Source of the DNA: Thermodesulfobacterium sp.
GTDB lineage: Bacteria; Desulfobacterota; Thermodesulfobacteria; Thermodesulfobacteriales; Thermodesulfobacteriaceae
Assembly: GCA_017656385.1 (NCBI GenBank)
Contig: JACDNX010000005.1
Coordinates: 1-64,000 of the forward strand
Direction: 5' to 3'
DNA length: 64,000 nt
Part shown: positions 27,243 through 37,249 of the stretch, piece after piece
Layout: every line of letters starts with the position of its first letter
Numbering within the stretch: the first letter of the stretch is position 1
The notes under the pieces: generated by a model
Told to the model about the DNA's origin: nothing
Seen by the model: the letters and a program-made list of their open reading frames with translations, nothing else
Databases searched by the model: none
Made by a program: the position numbers and the translations under genes

Positions 27243-28457
27243 TTAATGCTCAGATTTATATTTAGGATGTTCATAAAGTACAGGCATACGGTTAAGAACA
27301 AAACGATAGGTAAGAATTAACATAGTAACCACTCCAGCACTAAGTGCTATCTCAGTCCAAGCAGGATAATATTTCTGAGAAAAAGGTACATACCATTTAT
27401 ATGCAAATAAAGAGACATTTAAACGATTAATAATTACTCCCAAAGCAGTTAAAACTGCACCCAATTTTACAAGCCAGACTAATCTATTTCTTACTGCAGA
27501 AGTAAACATAAGTGCTGGAACAAGGACAAAAGCTATCAATTCAACAAGATACCAAAATCCATAAAATCCTTTCATGTAGTGCCATTTTTCATAATGGGCA
27601 AAATCAAGAAGTTTTAAAATTAAATAAATATAAAGAGCACATGCAGCAGCTTTCCCTAATCCAATAAGTTTTCTATTAAAATCTTCTTCATCAAAATCTT
27701 TTATTTGATGTTTAAAAGCTTTATGGGTTATAGTCCCTTCAATGATCACTATAGAAATACCACCAAAAATTGCTGAAATAAGAAAGAAAGGAGGTAATAG
27801 AGCTGAATACCAAAGTGGATGCAGTTTGGAAGGAGTTACTAAATACAATCCTCCAAGAGCAGACTGGTGTCCACCAGCAATAATTACTCCAAAAATAGTA
27901 GCCCATATTGTAAGTTTAGCAAAAAAATCTCTTGCTTTTTTGATATCTAACCATTCAAACAACACCGGTGCAAATTCTATAAGGGATATATTTATATAAA
28001 GGAAGAAGTGCCAACCGATTAGAAAGAGAATAGATTCAAAACCCCAAGACCATCCTATTAGATAAAAAACACGATAGTAACGCCCAAGGTCAAACATAAG
28101 AGCAAAGACAGCAAAAACATATCCCAGAAGACTTGATAAAATCACAGGACGAGCAAAATGGTGATATTCTTTAATTCCAAATAGATGAATAGCAGTTCCA
28201 ACAGTAAGACCAGGTGCAGCAAGAGCAATACCGACTAATATATCAAATCCGATCCAAAAACCCCAAGGATAATCATCTGATAAATTAGTTGAAGGACCAA
28301 GTCCACATATAAGTCTATATATCATCGCATAAATTCCAAAAATTAAAATAATAAGAGCTATTATGTTTCCAATGGTTATATTATCTTTTATAAACTCGCC
28401 AAAAGTTCTTCCCATAAGAATTTTTTCTCTAAACCAGGAGCTATTATTTTTCACCAT
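27243..28457 (-). CDS. HmcC-like NrfD-family membrane subunit
   Basis: A polytopic quinone-interacting subunit of the NrfD/PsrC family and the last gene of the Hmc/Tmc-like operon. About ten hydrophobic spans are visible over ~404 residues. Family features include DYPWGFWIGFDILVGIALAAPG near the N-terminus and GGHQSALGGLYLVTPSKLHPLW in the middle. An ATG at 28457 is preferred because a Shine-Dalgarno (AAGGAGAG) lies just before it; an ATG 21 bases further upstream lacks one. The gene overlaps the end of hmcB by 14 bases. With HmcB it should pass electrons between a menaquinone site and the periplasmic Fe-S chain. Confidence 0.88.
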   Translation of the reverse strand: MVKNNSSWFREKILMGRTFGEFIKDNITIGNIIALIILIFGIYAMIYRLICGLGPSTNLSDDYPWGFWIGFDILVGIALAAPGLTVGTAIHLFGIKEYHHFARPVILSSLLGYVFAVFALMFDLGRYYRVFYLIGWSWGFESILFLIGWHFFLYINISLIEFAPVLFEWLDIKKARDFFAKLTIWATIFGVIIAGGHQSALGGLYLVTPSKLHPLWYSALLPPFFLISAIFGGISIVIIEGTITHKAFKHQIKDFDEEDFNRKLIGLGKAAACALYIYLILKLLDFAHYEKWHYMKGFYGFWYLVELIAFVLVPALMFTSAVRNRLVWLVKLGAVLTALGVIINRLNVSLFAYKWYVPFSQKYYPAWTEIALSAGVVTMLILTYRFVLNRMPVLYEHPKYKSEH

Positions 28458-29466
28458 GGCCCTCTCCTTTTTCCTCATTTATAGATTGATGTTTTTTACG
28501 AGATCTTGAAATTTGATAATAAGCTCCAAAAACTAAAGGCCAAGCTGCTACTACTTCAAAAAGTTTTACTGTAAATAAGAAATTTCTACTATATTCAGGT
28601 ATTGGTGTTTCTCCAAGGTCCATTCTAAAACCAATTTCTTCAAAAGGAACAGGAGAAATATAAAGCCAGCTTGTACCTCCAACTTCCTTTTCTCCATATA
28701 CATAAGGAAAATATTTTCCAGGATTATTGTGTATCCTCTCCCAAGCTAATTTAATAAGCTCACTTCTTTTCCCAAAAGTTAAAGCTCCTGCAGTACAAAT
28801 TTCAACACAAGCAGGAACTTTACCCTGAACAATTCTATCGTAACACATTGTGCACTTTGTAACCTGTGGAGTAAGAGGATCATAATATTCATAGGCAGGG
28901 ATGTCAAAAGGACAAGCTACCATACAATATCTACATCCTATACATACATGGGGATTATAAATTACTGGACCTTCAGCTGTTTTTCTAAATGCCTCTACAA
29001 AACATGCAGAATAACATGCTGGATCTATACAGTGCATACATTGTTTTTTTACATATATAGGTTTGCCTTCCTTAGTATAATAACGGTTTACTACAGTAAA
29101 CTGCCCTGCATGAGGTCTTCTTATTTTATCAAATACAGAAGGTTTTTGATGCACAGAAGCTTCAAATTCTTTCAAAGGTCTATTAGGATTTTGATTCCAT
29201 TCATTACACGCCCATTCACATCTTCTACAACCTATACATTTAGATACATCCACCAATATTCCATAAGGTTCTTCAGGAGGAGGTAAATGTTTTTCTTTTC
29301 TTTCTTCATATACTTTCCATACCCTTGCATTAGCTTTATTACCAGTTGCATATATACTTGGATCGTCTCCCTTTGTATAAGCTTCAGAAATTGAGGGAGT
29401 GGTTATAATTGCAGTTCCTGTAATTAATCCTATTCTTTTTAAAAAGTCCCTTCTACTTAATTTCAT
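28444..29466 (-). CDS. HmcB-like periplasmic four-cluster ferredoxin with Tat signal
   Basis: A 340-residue Fe-S subunit of the DmsB/HmcB family. The N-terminal SRRDFLKRIGLITGTAIITT is a twin-arginine signal, so the folded protein is exported. Four cysteine groups follow: CIGCRRCEWAC, CMHCIDPACYSAC, CIGCRYCMVACPFDIP and CTMCYDRIVQGKVPACVEIC, enough for four [4Fe-4S] clusters. A hydrophobic stretch near the C-terminus (VKLFEVVAAWPLVFGAYY) looks like a membrane anchor, as in HmcB. It links the 16-heme cytochrome to the HmcC membrane subunit. It follows the 38-residue HmcD-like gene by 15 bases. Confidence 0.9.
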   Translation of the reverse strand: MKLSRRDFLKRIGLITGTAIITTPSISEAYTKGDDPSIYATGNKANARVWKVYEERKEKHLPPPEEPYGILVDVSKCIGCRRCEWACNEWNQNPNRPLKEFEASVHQKPSVFDKIRRPHAGQFTVVNRYYTKEGKPIYVKKQCMHCIDPACYSACFVEAFRKTAEGPVIYNPHVCIGCRYCMVACPFDIPAYEYYDPLTPQVTKCTMCYDRIVQGKVPACVEICTAGALTFGKRSELIKLAWERIHNNPGKYFPYVYGEKEVGGTSWLYISPVPFEEIGFRMDLGETPIPEYSRNFLFTVKLFEVVAAWPLVFGAYYQISRSRKKHQSINEEKGEGHGEK

Positions 29467-29481
29467 AAGATCTTCCCCCTT

Positions 29482-29598
29482 TTAATATTTCCGCTCTGTG
29501 CTGAGAAGATAATAAATAAATATAAATATAAAAGCAGCAGTAACAGCAACTACATACTCAAAACCATGTGCAGTGAAAAGCTGTTCAATTATATACAT
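29482..29598 (-). CDS. HmcD-like 38-residue membrane protein
   Basis: A very short gene between hmcA and hmcB. It encodes MYIIEQLFTAHGFEYVVAVT and then a hydrophobic helix (AAFIFIFIYYLL) with a charged tail ending ERKY. A Shine-Dalgarno-like GGGGTGGAAG lies directly before the ATG. In Desulfovibrio the hmc operon encodes a similarly small one-span protein, HmcD, at the equivalent place among the membrane and Fe-S subunits. The call therefore rests on size, topology and position rather than on sequence similarity. Confidence 0.7.
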   Translation of the reverse strand: MYIIEQLFTAHGFEYVVAVTAAFIFIFIYYLLSTERKY

Positions 29599-29611
29599 CT
29601 TCCACCCCTAT

Positions 29612-31348
29612 TTACCTTTTTTTTATCCCAAGTATATCTGTAGGTACAGGTCTTTGTTTCTTCTCTTTATGGCAATCAGTACACCTATGAGTAGGTTTCT
29701 TAAGCCCCATAAAGTCATGACAACCTATACATTGCACATGATATGCAGCCTGTAATCTCATTTTATTCGGATTAACTGGGTTAAAATATTTAGGATGGCA
29801 ATTTTGACAAGATGGTGGTGTATCCTTTTTAACTTCTGCAGAAGATTTTCTCTGATGGTGACATCCTTCACAAAGTACTCTCAAATCATTGTGAAAGTAT
29901 CTTGCTAATTTACTATCATTGGAAATCTTTACCAGTTTATCTATAATTTTCCGATGTGGAAAATCTGCAGGCTCAAATTCTTTTTCTAAAACTTTTATTT
30001 TAATATCTTTCTTTACTACCTCTGGATCAAGGTTAACTGTTGTTAAAGGTTTAGGTAAAATAACTTCTTTTTTACCTGTATGACATCTATCACAAACTTC
30101 TTTTCTGGGTTCCTTGGCTTTAACATCAATTAAAGGAATAAATTTATGACAGCCTGCACAGTTCTTTTCTAATTTCTTTTTATTATGACATCCTGCACAG
30201 CTATGGTCTGAAAATGGAGCATGGTAAGCATCTACTATATTTACCCAACCTCCCTCAGCAACTCCTTCCAACTTATGACATTCTTTACATGCTCTTAATC
30301 TTTCATGGTGACACTCTCTACAAGTCTTGTGATAATACTCGTGATTTTTATGACTAAAAGCAACACCTTTCATTTTGGCATTTTTTACATTTATGAAAAC
30401 AGTCTCTTTCTGTTTTCTATCTGGACGAGGCACTTTCTCAAGATCTTTTATGCTTCTATATTTACCTGTATGACACTTTCCACATTCCAAAGGTGGGGCT
30501 TTTTCGTCTTTTCTTTTACTAATTTCCATTTCTTTATTAATCTTTATGTGACAGCTAAGACATCTCTCATGAGCTGTTTTCTGATAAGGAAGCCCTTTTT
30601 CTGTGGTAACTTTTACTATCTGAGAAAGCTCAGGTCCTCTTTTCTTTTTACTAAGATCATGACAATAATAACATGATTCTTCTGTTCCATTTTGATAAAC
30701 CAATTTTTTCTCTTTTAAATCATAAACATGGTGACACAAAGCACAATCCTTTTTCCCTGTTCTCTTTTTAAGTTTTTCTTCGTGATCATAATGACGCTTA
30801 AAATCAAATTCTACTAAAGGATATTTTATCTTAACAAACTCTTTTTCCTTTACATGACACTCCCCACAAGTAATAGGACCTGCTTTTTTCTTTTCTTTTA
30901 GTTTTTCTTTATGACATCCTATACATTCATCATGATAAGCCTTTTCTATTAATTTTTTATCACCTTTGACTTCTCTTTTAGGAAATACAAAAACTAAAAC
31001 ATCCCTTTCTTCCTCTTTTTTTCCTTTTATAATATCATTTTCTTTTTCAATTCTTGTTAATTTTTCTTTTTTCTTTCTGTGACAAACACTACATGTTTCC
31101 CATTCTTTCTTTCCTTCTTTTTTAATAGCTTCTACATGTTTTTTATGGTCAAAAATAACTTGTGGTCTTTCTAAAGCTCCAAATATTTCTGTATGAGCAA
31201 TTGCAATTTTTTCTTCTGGTTTAGTAATTACTACTTCTTTAGAAGGAGGGATAGCTGGTGCGGTATAAACCTGCTTTATTCCGTAAACTATTAAAAATAA
31301 ATAGCACAAAATCCCCAAAAGTATTAAAACTAAAGTTTTTCTTTCCAT
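29612..31348 (-). CDS. HmcA-like 16-heme c-type cytochrome
   Basis: A 578-residue periplasmic multiheme cytochrome. I count exactly 16 CxxCH motifs, beginning with CSVCH and ending with CIGCH and CTDCH, the same number of hemes as Desulfovibrio high-molecular-weight cytochrome HmcA. Many additional histidines (for example FDHKKH, FSHKNHEYYH) could be distal axial ligands, in the style of cytochrome c3 repeats. An N-terminal hydrophobic helix (TLVLILLGILCYLFLIVYGI) is a signal or anchor with no obvious cleavage site. It would receive electrons from hydrogenase or formate dehydrogenase through small c-type cytochromes and pass them to HmcB. It is unusually Lys-rich. Confidence 0.93.
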   Translation of the reverse strand: MERKTLVLILLGILCYLFLIVYGIKQVYTAPAIPPSKEVVITKPEEKIAIAHTEIFGALERPQVIFDHKKHVEAIKKEGKKEWETCSVCHRKKKEKLTRIEKENDIIKGKKEEERDVLVFVFPKREVKGDKKLIEKAYHDECIGCHKEKLKEKKKAGPITCGECHVKEKEFVKIKYPLVEFDFKRHYDHEEKLKKRTGKKDCALCHHVYDLKEKKLVYQNGTEESCYYCHDLSKKKRGPELSQIVKVTTEKGLPYQKTAHERCLSCHIKINKEMEISKRKDEKAPPLECGKCHTGKYRSIKDLEKVPRPDRKQKETVFINVKNAKMKGVAFSHKNHEYYHKTCRECHHERLRACKECHKLEGVAEGGWVNIVDAYHAPFSDHSCAGCHNKKKLEKNCAGCHKFIPLIDVKAKEPRKEVCDRCHTGKKEVILPKPLTTVNLDPEVVKKDIKIKVLEKEFEPADFPHRKIIDKLVKISNDSKLARYFHNDLRVLCEGCHHQRKSSAEVKKDTPPSCQNCHPKYFNPVNPNKMRLQAAYHVQCIGCHDFMGLKKPTHRCTDCHKEKKQRPVPTDILGIKKR

Positions 31349-31380
31349 ACTCTTTACTCCTTGTTCTTATTCACTCCTTA

Positions 31381-32712
31381 TTAATATTCTACTTTTAATT
31401 CATCTGGAATTTCTACTACTTGTAATAACAATTCAACTAAGAATACATTTTTCACACCTAACTTATAAGTTTCAATAATATCTGCAATACCACTATGGCA
31501 ATTATGACAAGGAGTAACCACAATTTTTGCTCCTGTTCTTTTAATCTGATCTGCTTTCACACTATTTCCTGCTACTCTTTTACCTCTCCATATAGGACCA
31601 CAATTTATTACACCTCCACCAGCAGCACAACAAAAATTATGTTCATTATTAGGGGTCATCTCTATAAAATTTTCACAAATTTGCTCCATTATATATCTTG
31701 CATACTTACCCAAACCTCTTCCTCTTACTACATTACAAGGATCGTGAAGAGTTACAGGTTCTTTTATTTTCTTTACTACTTTTAATCTTCCTGATTTTAA
31801 AAGTTCATAATATAACTGAATAGCATGAATTACTGGAATAGGATGTGCTTTCCATCCGAGACATCTATTACCTACATCGTAAACAGAACGAAAAGCATGT
31901 CCACATTCACACATCACTATTCTTTTTACTTTGAGCTTCATTGCTGCTTCAAAATGAGCTCTCTTAATTCTTTCACAAGTTTCAAAATCACCTACATACA
32001 TAGCCATATCTGAATTATCCCATCCATCAAAAGAGGGAAAAGTAAAATCTATTCCTGCTATATACATAAGTGTAGCCACTTCTTGAATTAGTTGAGGTTT
32101 AAATTTTGGCTCAGGTCCTATTACTGAAAACATTACATCAGCACCCTCTTTATCAAAAGGAATATAAAAATTCTTTATTTCAGCTTGTCCTTCATCCTCT
32201 TGCCAAAAGACTGTATCAATCCACTCATCCTCTTTTACCCACATTTGATTCATAGTAACTGCATGGCTATTACAAGTATCTTGAATATATAAAGGCACTA
32301 CACCAAGAAGATGGCAAAGCCTTCTAACCATATTCATCATGTAACCTATATCAATACCAAAAGGACAATACATACTACATCTTTTACACAAATTACATTC
32401 AGTAAATGCTATTTCTGCAGCTCGTCTTATAAAATCTTTATCTACTTTACCATCTCTACGAAGTATCTCCCATATAGTCTGTTTTACTTTTCCTACTGGA
32501 GAATAAATAGGATCTTTAAAAGATTGATACCAATGGCAGGCATCAGAACATAACCCACAATGAATACATGTATTTACATAAACATCGAATCTGCCTTTTT
32601 TAAGAGTAGCTACAAATTTAGATAAAACTTCATTTTTTCTTTCTTCTGTAAGTTTTTCTAATCCTTCTTCTATTCCAGGATCAACTATATTAAATTGAGT
32701 AGCTTCAGCCAT
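31381..32712 (-). CDS. HmcF/TmcB-like cytoplasmic Fe-S protein with CCG domain
   Basis: A 443-residue heterodisulfide-reductase-like subunit. Two [4Fe-4S] motifs, CIHCGLCSDACHW and CNLCKRCSMYCPFG, lie in the first ~120 residues. The second half is a cysteine-rich CCG domain with CECGHAF, NFCCAAGGG and TPCHNCHSG. In HdrB/HdrD this kind of domain holds the catalytic noncubane cluster. The ATG at 32712 has a near-perfect Shine-Dalgarno (GAGAGGAG) and replaces an upstream in-frame ATG that overlaps hmcE. It is the subunit likely to face the cytoplasm and deliver electrons to, or take them from, an unknown partner. Hmc and Tmc both have such a subunit. Confidence 0.9.
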   Translation of the reverse strand: MAEATQFNIVDPGIEEGLEKLTEERKNEVLSKFVATLKKGRFDVYVNTCIHCGLCSDACHWYQSFKDPIYSPVGKVKQTIWEILRRDGKVDKDFIRRAAEIAFTECNLCKRCSMYCPFGIDIGYMMNMVRRLCHLLGVVPLYIQDTCNSHAVTMNQMWVKEDEWIDTVFWQEDEGQAEIKNFYIPFDKEGADVMFSVIGPEPKFKPQLIQEVATLMYIAGIDFTFPSFDGWDNSDMAMYVGDFETCERIKRAHFEAAMKLKVKRIVMCECGHAFRSVYDVGNRCLGWKAHPIPVIHAIQLYYELLKSGRLKVVKKIKEPVTLHDPCNVVRGRGLGKYARYIMEQICENFIEMTPNNEHNFCCAAGGGVINCGPIWRGKRVAGNSVKADQIKRTGAKIVVTPCHNCHSGIADIIETYKLGVKNVFLVELLLQVVEIPDELKVEY

Positions 32713-32732
32713 AGTTCTTCTCCTCTCAAATT

Positions 32733-33407
32733 TTACCAATCTTTTACTTTTCTTACATATCCAAATTCACTTGCTATATAACCTCTTGTAAAGAAGAAAC
32801 TCCATATATGAAACAGTCTTGTAAAAGGAATACTTATAAGCATAATCTCACCAAACAAAATATGAAGATTTAGAAATATTTTATATGTATAAACTTGATG
32901 ATAAGCAAGAAATCCTGTTAAAAAAGTAAAAAATACAATAGCTAAAATGAAATAATCAGATAAATAAGTAACATAACTTACTTCTTTAATAAATATCCTT
33001 CTTCCTAAGAAAAAGATACAAGAAATAATCACTATTATAGTAGCTATATCAGCTAATTTATCAGGGATTGTCCACCAGCTTATTCCCCAAGATTCATATA
33101 TTAAAAGATTGTGTGCAGAAAGAAAGATAGGAACAAATATTAACGAAATGTGAAAAAGAAAAGTAAAAAGGTTCATATATGGATGAAGCCTCCAATTGCG
33201 AGTCCCAAAAGGAAGAAACCAATGAAAATAAGATTTTAAAGCATATTGAGGTTTAACATAAACAAAAACTACTTTTTCCTGCGATAATTCTTTGGTGTAA
33301 CGAATTATTTTGTAAATACTACCAACAAAAAAAAGTATAAAAGCAACCCAACACATCGGACCTCTTAAAAATTTATATAACAAATCACTTCCTAAAAGTT
33401 CAAACAT
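32733..33407 (-). CDS. HmcE/TmcC-like cytochrome b membrane subunit
   Basis: A 224-residue integral membrane protein of the NarI/HdrE-like gamma-subunit type. Five hydrophobic helices are visible. Histidines that could hold b-type heme occur in HPYMNLFTFLFHISLIF, GFLAYHQ and LNLHILFGEIMLISIPFTRLFHIWSF. It is followed at a gap of 20 bases by the HmcF-like gene. Together these two form the quinone-and-heterodisulfide-like module of the complex. Whether it is nearer to HmcE or TmcC cannot be decided by eye. Confidence 0.85.
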   Translation of the reverse strand: MFELLGSDLLYKFLRGPMCWVAFILFFVGSIYKIIRYTKELSQEKVVFVYVKPQYALKSYFHWFLPFGTRNWRLHPYMNLFTFLFHISLIFVPIFLSAHNLLIYESWGISWWTIPDKLADIATIIVIISCIFFLGRRIFIKEVSYVTYLSDYFILAIVFFTFLTGFLAYHQVYTYKIFLNLHILFGEIMLISIPFTRLFHIWSFFFTRGYIASEFGYVRKVKDW

Positions 33408-33424
33408 AATTTTACTCCTTATAA

Positions 33425-34717
33425 TTAAATTTCATCAAGAGATAAAACTTTTCTAACATATTTACCATTTAAAATTCCTCTTATTAGCAATTTTTTATTA
33501 TCTGGACTAAATTGAGGAAGCCATAAGGCTTCATAAGCCTCTTTACCTACTTTTCCGTCTAAAACTACATAATATTTTCCATCTATTTCGGCCTTTGTAA
33601 CAATGTGTTCTCCATCTGAACTAAAGAGTGGATCCCAAATCATATCAAAAGTTTGCTCCCATCTTTTTCCATCTACTGCAATAGACCATCTGTCATTATC
33701 TGGATTTTTAAAAAGGGTAATATTTTTAAACGGGTCTTTGGATTCTTTTACTACAGCAGCAATCTTTCTGCCATCTGGACTAAAAACAGGCTCAAGTACT
33801 GCATCTGAAAATTTTCTATTCCAAGGAACACCATCTACTGCTATAGTCCACTCCCCTATGGCAGTAGCTACTACAGCTGCTATTTTATTCCCATCTGGAG
33901 AGACTTTTTGATGCCATACCTGAGTAAAATAATCCCATATAGGATCACCATCCAAAGCTAAAGTCCAACCTTTAGAAGTTTTTACTGGAGCAATCACCTG
34001 ATTTCTACCAGGAAGAAATAAAGGCTCCCATACATTATCAAATATTTTATCCCAAGGTTTACCATCTACAGCTATAGTATATTCTGTTCTACTTAATCTT
34101 ACTTCAGCCGCTACATGTTTAGAATCAGAACTAAATACCGGATTCCAAACATTTACAAATTTTTTATCCCATACTTGCCCATCTACAGCAACACTCCAAA
34201 CACCTTCAAAAAATTTACTTACTTCCCCTTCCTTTAAAGGTTCTATTTGAACAGGTGCAGCTGCTTTCGTGTTATCTGGACTTAAAACTAAACCACGAGT
34301 CTGATGAAATACTTGTTCCCAAGTAACATCATTAATAGCTACAGAATACTGTTCCATAGTTTTTACATTTACAGCAATAGTTTTACCATCAGTACCTAAA
34401 ATAAAATTCCAAATAAATTCATATCTATTTTCCCACTCCTGTCCATCAACAGCTACAGTCCATTCATAATCTTTAGTCACTAAAGCCAATGGTTGATTTA
34501 AAGAATTATATCTTAACCCCCATACTCTATCATATCTTCCTTCCCATAATTTTCCATTTTCACAAACTGTAAACCCTTCATCTGTTCGAACTATAGCAGC
34601 AACTTTTTCTCCATCAGGAGATGGAGTTATCTCTCTTACTTCAATAAATTTTTCTTTCCACTCATTTATATTCGCTATTACTTTATCCTTACTCTCCCAG
34701 TCCCAACTTTCTTTCAT
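33425..34717 (-). CDS. TmcD-like repeat protein, predicted beta-propeller
   Basis: A 430-residue protein made of about nine copies of a 38-50 residue repeat. The consensus is roughly W(S/T)(I/V)AVDG..W...F..VW.P.FSPDG..IAA.V. The N-terminal piece (ITPSPDGEKVAAIV) supplies the outer strands that would close the ring with the last repeat. No signal peptide or membrane helix is present, so it should stay in the cytoplasm. In Desulfovibrio, tmcD encodes a soluble subunit of the Tmc complex beside TmcB and TmcC, and here it heads the operon. The sequence supports a propeller; the TmcD equivalence rests on context. The Shine-Dalgarno GGGAGGA is clear. Confidence 0.75.
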   Translation of the reverse strand: MKESWDWESKDKVIANINEWKEKFIEVREITPSPDGEKVAAIVRTDEGFTVCENGKLWEGRYDRVWGLRYNSLNQPLALVTKDYEWTVAVDGQEWENRYEFIWNFILGTDGKTIAVNVKTMEQYSVAINDVTWEQVFHQTRGLVLSPDNTKAAAPVQIEPLKEGEVSKFFEGVWSVAVDGQVWDKKFVNVWNPVFSSDSKHVAAEVRLSRTEYTIAVDGKPWDKIFDNVWEPLFLPGRNQVIAPVKTSKGWTLALDGDPIWDYFTQVWHQKVSPDGNKIAAVVATAIGEWTIAVDGVPWNRKFSDAVLEPVFSPDGRKIAAVVKESKDPFKNITLFKNPDNDRWSIAVDGKRWEQTFDMIWDPLFSSDGEHIVTKAEIDGKYYVVLDGKVGKEAYEALWLPQFSPDNKKLLIRGILNGKYVRKVLSLDEI

Positions 34718-34745
34718 TAGATATATCCTCCCTTAAAAAGGTTAT

Positions 34746-34767
34746 AATTCAATTTCAATTTTGAATT
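34746..34767. promoter_or_regulatory. Inverted repeat, candidate operator of the Hmc/Tmc-like operon
   Basis: AATTCAA (34746-34752) and TTGAATT (34761-34767) are perfect inverted arms separated by eight bases. The element covers the end of the predicted -10 box and the predicted start site of the promoter at 34765-34793, where a bound repressor would block transcription. It does not match the usual Rex or FNR consensus exactly. It could still be chance in AT-rich DNA. Confidence 0.35.
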
Positions 34768-34793
34768 TTGGTAAATTTTTTTAAAAAAGTCAA
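34765..34793 (-). promoter_or_regulatory. Predicted promoter of the Hmc/Tmc-like operon
   Basis: On the minus strand TTGACT (34788-34793) and CAAAAT (34765-34770) are spaced 17 bases apart. Transcription would begin near 34758, about 41 bases before the first start codon. No other credible promoter was seen between the seven genes, which are 0-35 bases apart. The rest of the 34718-34921 gap is featureless and very AT-rich. Confidence 0.5.
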
Positions 34794-34921
34794 GACCATA
34801 TAAAAGCTAAAAAAAATAGTATTTATTTGTAAAATTTTCAAAAAAATTCTTTTATCCATCTTTTTCTTATTTTTTACAGTTTTTTTTCTTTACATACCAA
34901 TTATTTATTAAAATCAAATTT

Positions 34922-37249
34922 TTATAAATCAAAAAATTCCTGATAAAATAATTTTTCGTTTTTAAAATTTTTATTCTTAAAATTTTCTATCCATTCTCGG
35001 GAAAACCCTGCAAACTTAACCTTTCCTTTTTCAATCTCTATTAGCCAATCACTTAAAAAAAAGGCTAAAAGATTAGTCTCTAAAACAATAATTGTAATGT
35101 TTTTTCTTTTTAAAAAGTTTAACCAGTTTGCCAGATGTTTAATATCTTCTAAAAATAAGCCTTGCAAAGGAAATTCTAATAGAAGATAGTTAAATTCAGT
35201 CTCTTCTAAAAACTTCCTTGCTATAAAAAGTCTATTTTTTTCACCTCCGGAGAGTTCTTGAAGTTCCTGTCCCAATTTTAAATAAGAAAGGTTGAGATCT
35301 TTTAAGAGTAAAACCTTGTCCTTTATTTTAGATATATTCCCAAATATAGGCAAAAGTTCATTTATAGTAAAATCAAAAATCTCTGAAATCTTAAACCCTT
35401 TATAAGAAAGACTTAATACCTCGGGATTTAAGCGCTTACCAAGACATTCTTCACAAAGATAGCTTAATTTAAAATTTTCTGTCTCTAAAATTTTTTTCCC
35501 TTTACCTTTACAAGCAGGACAAACTCCTTCCTTGGTATAAAAACTAAAATTTCTTTTAGTTAATCCTTTTACTCTTGCAGAAGGAAGCTTTACTAATATT
35601 TCTCTTAAATCATCCCAAATTCCTGTGTAACTTATTATAAGATCATTTTTTCTTTCTAAATACCTTGTTTCAACCTTGAGAACTTTATTTTCCTTCTTCT
35701 CTAAGACTTCATAAAGTTTATTAAAAATTTCGGTTTTTTTACTACCTGTCTTTCCATAAATTAAATTCACACCACCCTTTAAGAGCTTTATCTTTTCTAT
35801 ATCTAAAAGAATTTCTATAATATCTTCTTTTTCTTGAAAAAAATTTTCTTTTTCTCGAAAAGAAAATAGACCTCTAATTTTTCTTTTACCTTTTAAGTAT
35901 TCGGAAACTAAGCTGTCAGAGTTATCAAAAAATCTCTCTTTAAAATCTGCTTTTATTAAATATCCTCCCTTTTCTCCTCCTTCTCTCCCAAGTTCTATTA
36001 TATAATCAGCATTTTGAATAATATAAGGATCATGTTCTACTAAAACCACCGAATTTCCATTATTTATAAGTTCTTTTAAAAGAATAAGCAGTTTTTTCTT
36101 TTTTCCTATGTCTAACCCCAGTGTAGGCTCATCTAATATATAAAGCACTTTATTTAAATTGACACCAAAAATAAGAAGTATTTCCAGAAGTTTCCTTTCA
36201 CCTATGGATAAATTAAACACAGGGGTTGAAAGTTTTAAATAATCCATTTCCAAAAATAATGCCTTTTCCAGTTTAAAAAGTATAGAATCAACCCAAGATT
36301 TCAGATTTTCAGGAATTTCTAATCCCTTTAAATTGTCGTAAAATTTTTTAATAGACATGTTTAACCATTCTTCCACAGTATTTTCAAAAAGTTTGCTTTT
36401 TAATATCAATGATTCAATCTTTAGCCCTTTACACTCCTTGCAAGCCTCTTTTCCCCTGTATCCATGGCCTTTGCAAGACTTACATTTTATCCATTCTGTT
36501 AAAAGTTGAGTTCCACATTTTAAACATACAGATTTAAGATTAAAAAAATACTCCTTTCCATTTAAAAACTTTAAAATTACTCTTCCCTGATTTAACCCAA
36601 GGCTAATTCTCAGATTTTCTACAAATCTTTCAAGACTTCCCTTCTCTTTTATCATCTTGTCAAGAAGAAGATAAATTTTGTCAAATTTAGCTGGAATTCT
36701 TCTTTCTGACAGATCTATTTCTTTATCATCTACAATGTATTTTACATAACCCTGAGAAACCAAAAATTCTAAAGCCTTGGGAGAGGTTTCAGAAAGAGGA
36801 AGTAGAAAATAGAATTTTTCTCCTTCTCTTACACTTTGAAACCACTTTATAATTTTGCTTAAACTGGAAACTTTATTAAACTCTCCACACTCAGGACATT
36901 TGTATTCTCCGTATTCTTCAAAAAGTAATCCCAAAGTTTGATATAGTGAAAGAAATTCACCAACGGTTTTATAAGGATGCCAGTTTTTAACTCCCTGGGT
37001 TATTGCTATAACAGGTGGTATAGGAGAAAGAAATTTAGCTTTAGAAACTGTGCTAAAATCACTTTGCTGAGAATAGTTTAGTATCTGAAAAAGTCTATTT
37101 TTACCTTCTTCAGCGATGGTATTAATTGCCAGTGAGCTTTTTCCTGATCCAGAAGGACCTGTAATAACAACTAAAGAATTTAAAGGAACTCTTAGGTTAA
37201 AACCTTTCAAATTGTGAGTGTAGACTTCTCTTAGTTCTAAATACTGCAA
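34922..37249 (-). CDS. UvrA-like ABC ATPase with a degenerate second nucleotide-binding site
   Basis: A 775-residue relative of excinuclease subunit UvrA, shorter than the usual ~940. NBD1 has an intact Walker A (VITGPSGSGKSS, ~29-40) and Walker B (LYILDEPTLGLD), with the switch His in VLVEHDPY, but its signature reads LSIGERKLL. NBD2 has a normal signature (LSGGEKNRLFIARKF) but an altered Walker A (YGKTGSKKTE). Its Walker B is LLLEFPLQGL, lacking the Asp-Glu pair, and Thr replaces the switch His (VLETNLL). Cysteine pairs of the zinc modules remain (CPECGEF, CKSCKGHGYRG, CPACKGKGKK, CEECLGKRL). It is adjacent to polX. Canonical UvrA is expected elsewhere; this is probably a specialised paralogue. 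Confidence 0.78.
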   Translation of the reverse strand: MQYLELREVYTHNLKGFNLRVPLNSLVVITGPSGSGKSSLAINTIAEEGKNRLFQILNYSQQSDFSTVSKAKFLSPIPPVIAITQGVKNWHPYKTVGEFLSLYQTLGLLFEEYGEYKCPECGEFNKVSSLSKIIKWFQSVREGEKFYFLLPLSETSPKALEFLVSQGYVKYIVDDKEIDLSERRIPAKFDKIYLLLDKMIKEKGSLERFVENLRISLGLNQGRVILKFLNGKEYFFNLKSVCLKCGTQLLTEWIKCKSCKGHGYRGKEACKECKGLKIESLILKSKLFENTVEEWLNMSIKKFYDNLKGLEIPENLKSWVDSILFKLEKALFLEMDYLKLSTPVFNLSIGERKLLEILLIFGVNLNKVLYILDEPTLGLDIGKKKKLLILLKELINNGNSVVLVEHDPYIIQNADYIIELGREGGEKGGYLIKADFKERFFDNSDSLVSEYLKGKRKIRGLFSFREKENFFQEKEDIIEILLDIEKIKLLKGGVNLIYGKTGSKKTEIFNKLYEVLEKKENKVLKVETRYLERKNDLIISYTGIWDDLREILVKLPSARVKGLTKRNFSFYTKEGVCPACKGKGKKILETENFKLSYLCEECLGKRLNPEVLSLSYKGFKISEIFDFTINELLPIFGNISKIKDKVLLLKDLNLSYLKLGQELQELSGGEKNRLFIARKFLEETEFNYLLLEFPLQGLFLEDIKHLANWLNFLKRKNITIIVLETNLLAFFLSDWLIEIEKGKVKFAGFSREWIENFKNKNFKNEKLFYQEFFDL

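Follow-up and report, generated by a model that had tools for sequence, protein, structure and literature searches.

Does an operon that joins subunits of two electron-transfer complexes, Tmc and Hmc, encode one transmembrane machine? The question is raised by a 64,000-nucleotide stretch of DNA from the thermophilic sulfate reducer Thermodesulfobacterium sp. (assembly GCA_017656385.1, contig JACDNX010000005.1, positions 1 to 64,000; hereafter the window), in which seven adjoining genes at 27243-34717 stand in the order tmcD-tmcC-tmcB-hmcA-hmcD-hmcB-hmcC (Table 1). An earlier sequence-only reading had described a same-strand set of seven genes here that combines Tmc and Hmc parts. All seven were found on the minus strand, and both NCBIfam scores and trees bear out the combination. 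As that reading had also said, the order is unlike hmcA-B-C-D-E-F, and the separate tmc and hmc loci that it ascribed to Desulfovibrio were seen in two Desulfovibrio-type genomes (G326 and G079). We propose, with moderate confidence and from sequence, that the operon encodes a single transmembrane complex, TmcDCB-HmcABCD, which would feed both menaquinone and a cytoplasmic CCG/DsrC site.

Subunits were assigned to families using NCBIfam profiles with curated cut-offs. The product of tmcC scored 279.7 bits against TmcC (cut-off 240) and 202.5 bits against HmcE (cut-off 275). The product of tmcB scored 707.6 bits against TmcB, 27 bits short of the cut-off of 735, and was 316 bits ahead of its HmcF score (391.5, cut-off 750). 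In a TmcB/HmcF tree rooted with DsrK, from which one locus (L146) was left out, the HmcF proteins formed a single clade (100/100) that excludes every TmcB, that of the window included. The sequence-only reading had left the pair as HmcE/TmcC and HmcF/TmcB; the Tmc half of this assignment stands and the Hmc half does not. Since the pair is TmcC and TmcB by family score and tree, the operon is a Tmc operon in which the tetraheme TmcA is replaced by a hexadecaheme HmcA-D-B-C module. An ordinary Hmc with mis-scored E and F subunits was ruled out by the family scores and the separate HmcF clade. The placement of all subunits inside ordinary Hmc, an outcome against which the sequence-only reading had asked to be checked, was not obtained, as the window TmcB falls outside the HmcF clade.

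The cofactor motifs are intact. In TmcC, His 86, 99, 182 and 200 are invariant in 107 TmcC/HmcE rows, as expected if they serve as ligands for two b hemes. TmcB carries the CCG ligands C335, C370-C371 and C411-x-x-C414 (numbered from the TTG at 32739) together with an invariant Cys279 within C-G-H, and its predicted fold resembles EtfD, LutA and HdrB. HmcA had been read as a 16-heme cytochrome; exactly 16 CXXCH motifs were counted, the HmcA profile gave 496.7 bits (cut-off 400), and the protein matches the HmcA structures 1gws/2cvc/1h29 in the PDB (E 7e-73). For HmcB and HmcC the best NCBIfam matches are HmcB (362.3 bits) and HmcC (430.9 bits), under the respective cut-offs of 420 and 550, and in the HmcC tree the window protein does not fall within the classic clade. 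The 16 cysteines of HmcB, for four [4Fe-4S] clusters, are all invariant in 54 rows, and its transmembrane helix spans residues 296-314. TmcD has no signal, no transmembrane segment and 23 Trp; its AlphaFold2 model (mean predicted local distance difference test score 93.5) is almost all beta, and the closest PDB folds are beta-propellers, but with low TM-scores. The HmcD-like peptide of the sequence-only reading is likewise borne out. An open reading frame (ORF) alike in size and pattern is kept between hmcA and hmcB in hybrids of Thermodesulfobacterium, Nitrospirota and Desulfomonile, while some hybrid loci have none at this place. The Desulfomonile peptide LTKGMEYLVVIIYLFVFISFWRFLTYREKE bridges it to classic HmcD, which is encoded between hmcC and hmcE, through LTKGxEY...FWRFLT.

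The distribution of this hybrid operon was examined in two samples. In the phylum sample, the same 395 genomes were searched with the TmcD and HmcA profiles and gene maps of the loci were drawn; in the named sample, TmcD was searched in 84,980 named genomes and loci were mapped for the best 80 of 251 relatives. Together they yielded the order TmcD-C-B-HmcA-B-C in 36 non-duplicate loci, cultured strains among them, and ordinary TmcD-C-B-TmcA (4 hemes) in 33 loci. Four further loci have HmcA after TmcB and are then cut or rearranged. Single loci showed the modules swapped (HmcA-B-C-TmcD-C-B, L094) or in tandem, with TmcDCBA directly followed by a full HmcABC-EF set (L027, genome G243). The hybrid is carried, among others, by T. 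hydrogeniphilum DSM 14290, by Thermodesulfovibrio and further Nitrospirota, by Desulfomonile and further Desulfobacterota, and by a metagenome-assembled genome (MAG) labelled Phycisphaerae; the cut form occurs in another MAG, labelled Myxococcales. The arrangement is no rarity but is common in lineages without Qrc. A local oddity or an assembly chimera was ruled out by the recurrence of the order in 36 loci including cultured strains, and a chance arrangement is excluded because the order is conserved across distant lineages. That six genes are kept together over such distances, once in swapped order, makes a single complex likely.

The occurrence of the menaquinone reductase Qrc (QrcABCD) differs sharply between the two operon types. 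With both samples pooled, Qrc was present in 0/36 hybrid genomes and in 40/43 ordinary-Tmc genomes. In the phylum sample, 0/16 hybrid genomes (two of the 16 cut by contig ends) had a QrcC over the cut-off, against 26/28 ordinary-Tmc genomes in which the cut-off was reached or the score was at least 370 bits (Fisher 4e-10). The named sample, which was picked by operon type before Qrc was looked for, gave 0/20 (of which L099, L131 and L108 are truncated by the end of the contig) against 14/15 (Fisher 6e-9). Both P values overstate independence. Because the genomes are related, the count by family, 0/3 against 12/14 (p 0.015), is the fairer figure. The absence of Qrc from Thermodesulfobacteriales has been published (PMC10553843); no connection of this absence with the hybrid type of operon came up in the literature searched. 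That the hybrid stands nearly always where Qrc is missing suggests that it takes on the tasks of two machines.

The trees speak to the origin of the hybrid. Ordinary Tmc proteins fall mostly into one clade of the TmcB tree with hybrids around it, although the basal branching lacks resolution, and a single hybrid clade is rejected (approximately unbiased (AU) test, p 3e-50). Classic Hmc likewise forms one clade with hybrids around it in the midpoint-rooted HmcA and HmcC trees. This pattern would fit an old hybrid that gave rise to both separate complexes; alternatively, repeated module exchange may have merged Tmc and Hmc halves. Exchange has left its mark in the window itself. Compared with the nearest congeners (L024, L038 and L064), TmcD is 52%, TmcC 56-60% and TmcB 46-48% identical, while HmcA, HmcB and HmcC are 80-90% identical, and the flanking genes and HmcA/B/C together 63-90%, in a locus that is otherwise syntenic. 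Among themselves the congeners have a DNA identity of 0.8-0.9 through most of the operon. The divergence changes near 34620, about 30 codons into tmcD, and near 31345, at the tmcB/hmcA junction. Vertical descent of the window tmcDCB within the genus was rejected (grouping of TmcB with the congeners, AU p 1e-22). The nearest relative of the window TmcB is that of L063 (support 86/83), and the composition does not indicate a donor because the block has an ordinary guanine-plus-cytosine content. In Nitrospirae bacterium Kmv42 (L061 6241-11321), one tmcDCB set with an in-frame UGA and a second with Cys stand in tandem ahead of a single hmcABC. The divergent block and this tandem therefore point to recombinational replacement or to the retention of one of two tandem copies, and the tmcDCB and hmcABC halves behave as modules.

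Besides DsrP and DsrK, the genome from which the window comes encodes no second protein like HmcC or TmcB. Its two NrfD proteins are HmcC of the operon and one beside DsrK, presumably DsrP; its two DsrK-type CCG proteins are DsrK and TmcB of the operon. TmcA is absent from the operon, and none over the cut-off was found in the genome. Qrc was not found in it either, the HmcB of the operon scoring 62 bits on the QrcC profile (cut-off 400). A two-subunit hydrogenase of the Hyd-2 type with a twin-arginine translocation (Tat) signal has no gene for a membrane subunit adjacent to it, and electrons from such an anchor-less enzyme need an entry into the membrane. HmcC has been reported to be close to QrcD, to share residues with it and to be probably electrogenic, QrcCD-type modules reducing menaquinone electrogenically (PMC6303296); Tmc is required for H2 oxidation and has been proposed to feed DsrC in G20 (PMC4215793). 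In the complex that we propose, HmcA would collect electrons from a small periplasmic cytochrome c3 and the soluble periplasmic hydrogenase. One branch would lead through HmcB to HmcC, where menaquinone would be reduced at the periplasmic face with cytoplasmic protons, an electrogenic step like that of Qrc. The other would run through the two b hemes of TmcC and through TmcB, which would contribute one CCG cluster and two [4Fe-4S] clusters, and would end at an acceptor in the cytoplasm, for which the DsrC trisulfide is the likeliest candidate. The TmcD propeller would be located on the cytoplasmic face. One complex would then cover the work that is split in Desulfovibrio between Qrc and Tmc.

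Several points weigh against this proposal, among them the relatedness of the genomes noted above. Co-transcription alone is no proof of one complex, and many of the comparison genomes are MAGs. Classic HmcABC and Qrc coexist in several genomes (e.g. G326 and G079), so the presence of HmcABC by itself is compatible with Qrc, and it is the hybrid that the exclusion concerns; the locus with swapped modules (L094) does have Qrc. Some hybrids carry a divergent HmcC, and the quinone part may therefore differ among hybrids. Finally, the genome has at G000:C7:16417-20162 (L176 6418-10163) a row of genes for a 25-heme c-type cytochrome, a membrane cytochrome of the b561/PhsC-like kind and a cytochrome with four hemes, which is a possible other link between cytochromes and quinone.

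Three other explanations were considered. In the first, which we regard as unlikely, the operon encodes a Tmc complex that has HmcA simply in place of TmcA as collector and serves mainly for transfer from the periplasm to DsrC; HmcB and HmcC would then form a quinone module of their own or a side branch of minor weight. The exact ordinary order of tmcD-C-B, with TmcA as the missing part and none over the cut-off elsewhere in the genome, speaks for it. Yet almost all hybrid loci that extend far enough have hmcB and hmcC after hmcA, and a mere change of collector would not predict that Qrc is missing from hybrid genomes.

Flow in the outward direction, from menaquinol or from cytoplasmic thiol or ferredoxin electrons to periplasmic cytochromes, or reversible flow in syntrophy or sulfur disproportionation, seems distinctly unlikely to us. 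Some regard Hmc as outward-acting (PMC5109826), and uncertainty has been stated for the direction of HmcC and for both the direction and the physiological role of Hmc (PMC6303296). An inward direction is favored by the resemblance of HmcC to the quinone reductases QrcD and HybB, by the hybrid taking the genomic place of Qrc, and by the soluble periplasmic hydrogenase of the genome. We give very little credence to a Tmc without TmcA and an HmcABCD that are co-transcribed but independent complexes and never form one particle: the halves do evolve separately, with tmcDCB divergent and hmcABC native in the window lineage, and G243 has TmcDCBA directly before a full HmcABC-EF set, but the six genes stay together even with their order swapped (L094), and each half by itself lacks an end because HmcABC is without its own HmcE/F and TmcDCB without its own cytochrome.

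Relatives of the window TmcB add a further feature. An in-frame UGA occurs in tmcB at the Cys279 column in 15 hybrid loci (L021, L024, L038, L064, L079, L061, L065, L067, L068, L072, L074, L076, L081, L083 and L088), in the motif [TCS]-E-U-G-H, which predicts a selenoprotein TmcB. This column is Cys or UGA in 100/100 rows, and the window TmcB has Cys. The in-frame stops could have meant broken genes, but UGA recurs in all 15 loci at this one invariant Cys, which makes selenocysteine the better reading. One locus is an exception (L043), its stop being TAG and at another position. A strong tRNA-Sec was found in 9/11 UGA-type genomes tested and in the window genome, against a background of about 48 bits at which other tRNAs cross-match. 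An 'Fe-S oxidoreductase-like protein' having the motif UGH appears in a published table (PMC13188914), so the selenoprotein family is already known; its role as TmcB in a hybrid complex is not named there. The selenocysteine relatives, the exclusion of Qrc and the module replacement go beyond the sequence-only reading.

The genes are called as one operon because their spacing is tight, with gaps of 13-33 bases or overlaps. The likelier start codons are ATG 32712 for tmcB and ATG 28457 for hmcC, each with a ribosome-binding-like sequence ahead, although the ORFs open at TTG 32739 and at 28478. The single promoter of the sequence-only reading could not be substantiated: TTGACT-17-CAAAAT at 34793 matches the consensus at 9/12 positions, and such promoter-like matches (37 found) are no more frequent than in shuffled sequence (36.2 expected).

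Table 1. Features of the tmc-hmc locus (window coordinates).
Feature	Position	Strand	Description
upstream intergenic region	34718..34921	-	consensus gives no demonstrable promoter
tmcD	33425..34717	-	430-aa cytoplasmic beta-propeller; NCBIfam TmcD 500.7 bits, above the cut-off of 440
tmcC	32733..33407	-	224-aa membrane subunit; 5 predicted transmembrane helices
tmcB	31381..32712	-	two [4Fe-4S] motifs and one CCG cluster domain
hmcA	29612..31348	-	578-aa periplasmic hexadecaheme cytochrome c; N-terminal hydrophobic segment
hmcD-like	29482..29598	-	38-aa single-helix peptide between hmcA and hmcB
hmcB	28444..29466	-	340-aa periplasmic Fe-S protein; Tat-type signal RRDFLK; one C-terminal transmembrane helix
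hmcC	27243..28457	-	NrfD-family membrane subunit (Pfam NrfD); 10 predicted transmembrane helices; putative menaquinone site
divergent tmcDCB block	31345..34620	-	46-60% protein identity to closest congeners

The operon is adjoined by a gene for a UvrA-like protein of 775 aa (34922-37249, minus strand), which is shorter than normal UvrA, scores 390 bits where the UvrA cut-off is 1147 and evolves faster than the genes around it.

The same modules were also seen in other arrangements. Eight loci (L058, L059, L060, L177, L178, L179, L180 and L181; family codes f36 and f76) combine the CCG-less Fe-S half of HmcF/TmcB with MetV, MetF and HmcA, and continue with HmcB and HmcC where the contig is long enough. 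A TmcC-like subunit stands in front in 7/8 and, before that, CdhD and a pterin-binding methyltransferase in 6/8. Such an operon may encode a putative membrane-bound methylene-tetrahydrofolate reductase coupled to a hexadecaheme cytochrome and an NrfD subunit, and these loci therefore suggest HmcABC as a general membrane input or output module. In Candidatus Abyssobacteria SURF_17 (L092), HmcB-HmcC flank TmcD-C-B on both sides and a 14-CXXCH cytochrome follows. Three Desulfofervidaceae loci (L054, L080 and L082) have TmcD followed by genes not recognisable as TmcC/TmcB; TmcD may serve another complex there. Taken together, it is possible, and we suggest it tentatively, that in Qrc-less sulfate reducers of several phyla one hybrid supplies from one periplasmic heme wire both menaquinone, which serves Qmo/APS reductase, and DsrC, which serves sulfite reductase, that such a hybrid was the ancestor of Hmc and Tmc, and that HmcABC acts generally as a membrane input module to which various cytoplasmic enzymes attach, TmcB here, HmcF in Hmc or, in other Desulfobacterota, MetVF.

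For Thermodesulfobacterium, Thermodesulfovibrio and Desulfomonile, the hybrid offers one testable answer to how electrons from H2, formate or a partner enter the quinone pool without Qrc. Papers on the thermophilic Thermodesulfobacterium that live as partners of archaea oxidising methane and alkanes do not mention Hmc, Tmc or Qrc as an entry point; the hybrid may be relevant to these partners as well. If Tmc is a reduced Hmc, the hybrid is the expected intermediate, and its history shows respiratory complexes evolving by exchange of whole halves. A named Tmc-Hmc hybrid was not found in the literature searched, although an earlier description in Pereira 2011 is possible.

Among known systems, TmcABCD of Desulfovibrio has tmcD-C-B in the same order as the hybrid, with subunits of the same three families, but the hybrid has the hexadecaheme HmcA in place of the tetraheme type II TmcA and adds HmcB, HmcC (NrfD) and HmcD. 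HmcABCDEF of Desulfovibrio shares HmcA and the HmcD-like subunit and probably HmcB and HmcC, for which the best matches stay under the cut-offs; the hybrid differs in having TmcC/TmcB for HmcE/HmcF, an added TmcD, another gene order and hmcD between hmcA and hmcB. Qrc resembles it by analogy, with a multiheme cytochrome, a four-cluster Fe-S protein and a 10-helix NrfD subunit on the periplasmic side, and may work in a partly similar way; the hybrid is no member of Qrc by sequence, lacks a QrcB-type subunit and has the extra TmcC/TmcB branch to the cytoplasm. In Desulfococcus multivorans a tandem tmc-hmc cluster has been described (PMC5109826), in which tmc adjoins hmc but both complete sets are kept and no hybrid is fused. 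The closest published case is THER_1440-1444 of Thermodesulfovibrio sp. N1, reported as Hmc without note of a TmcD/TmcC/TmcB identity (PMC5165239). This cluster holds a CCG ferredoxin, a 16-heme cytochrome, an Fe-S protein and an NrfD protein, and tmcD-C-B lies at a contig end of the same strain (L108); the 'Hmc' of Thermodesulfovibrio N1 is very probably the same type of operon as the hybrid described here.

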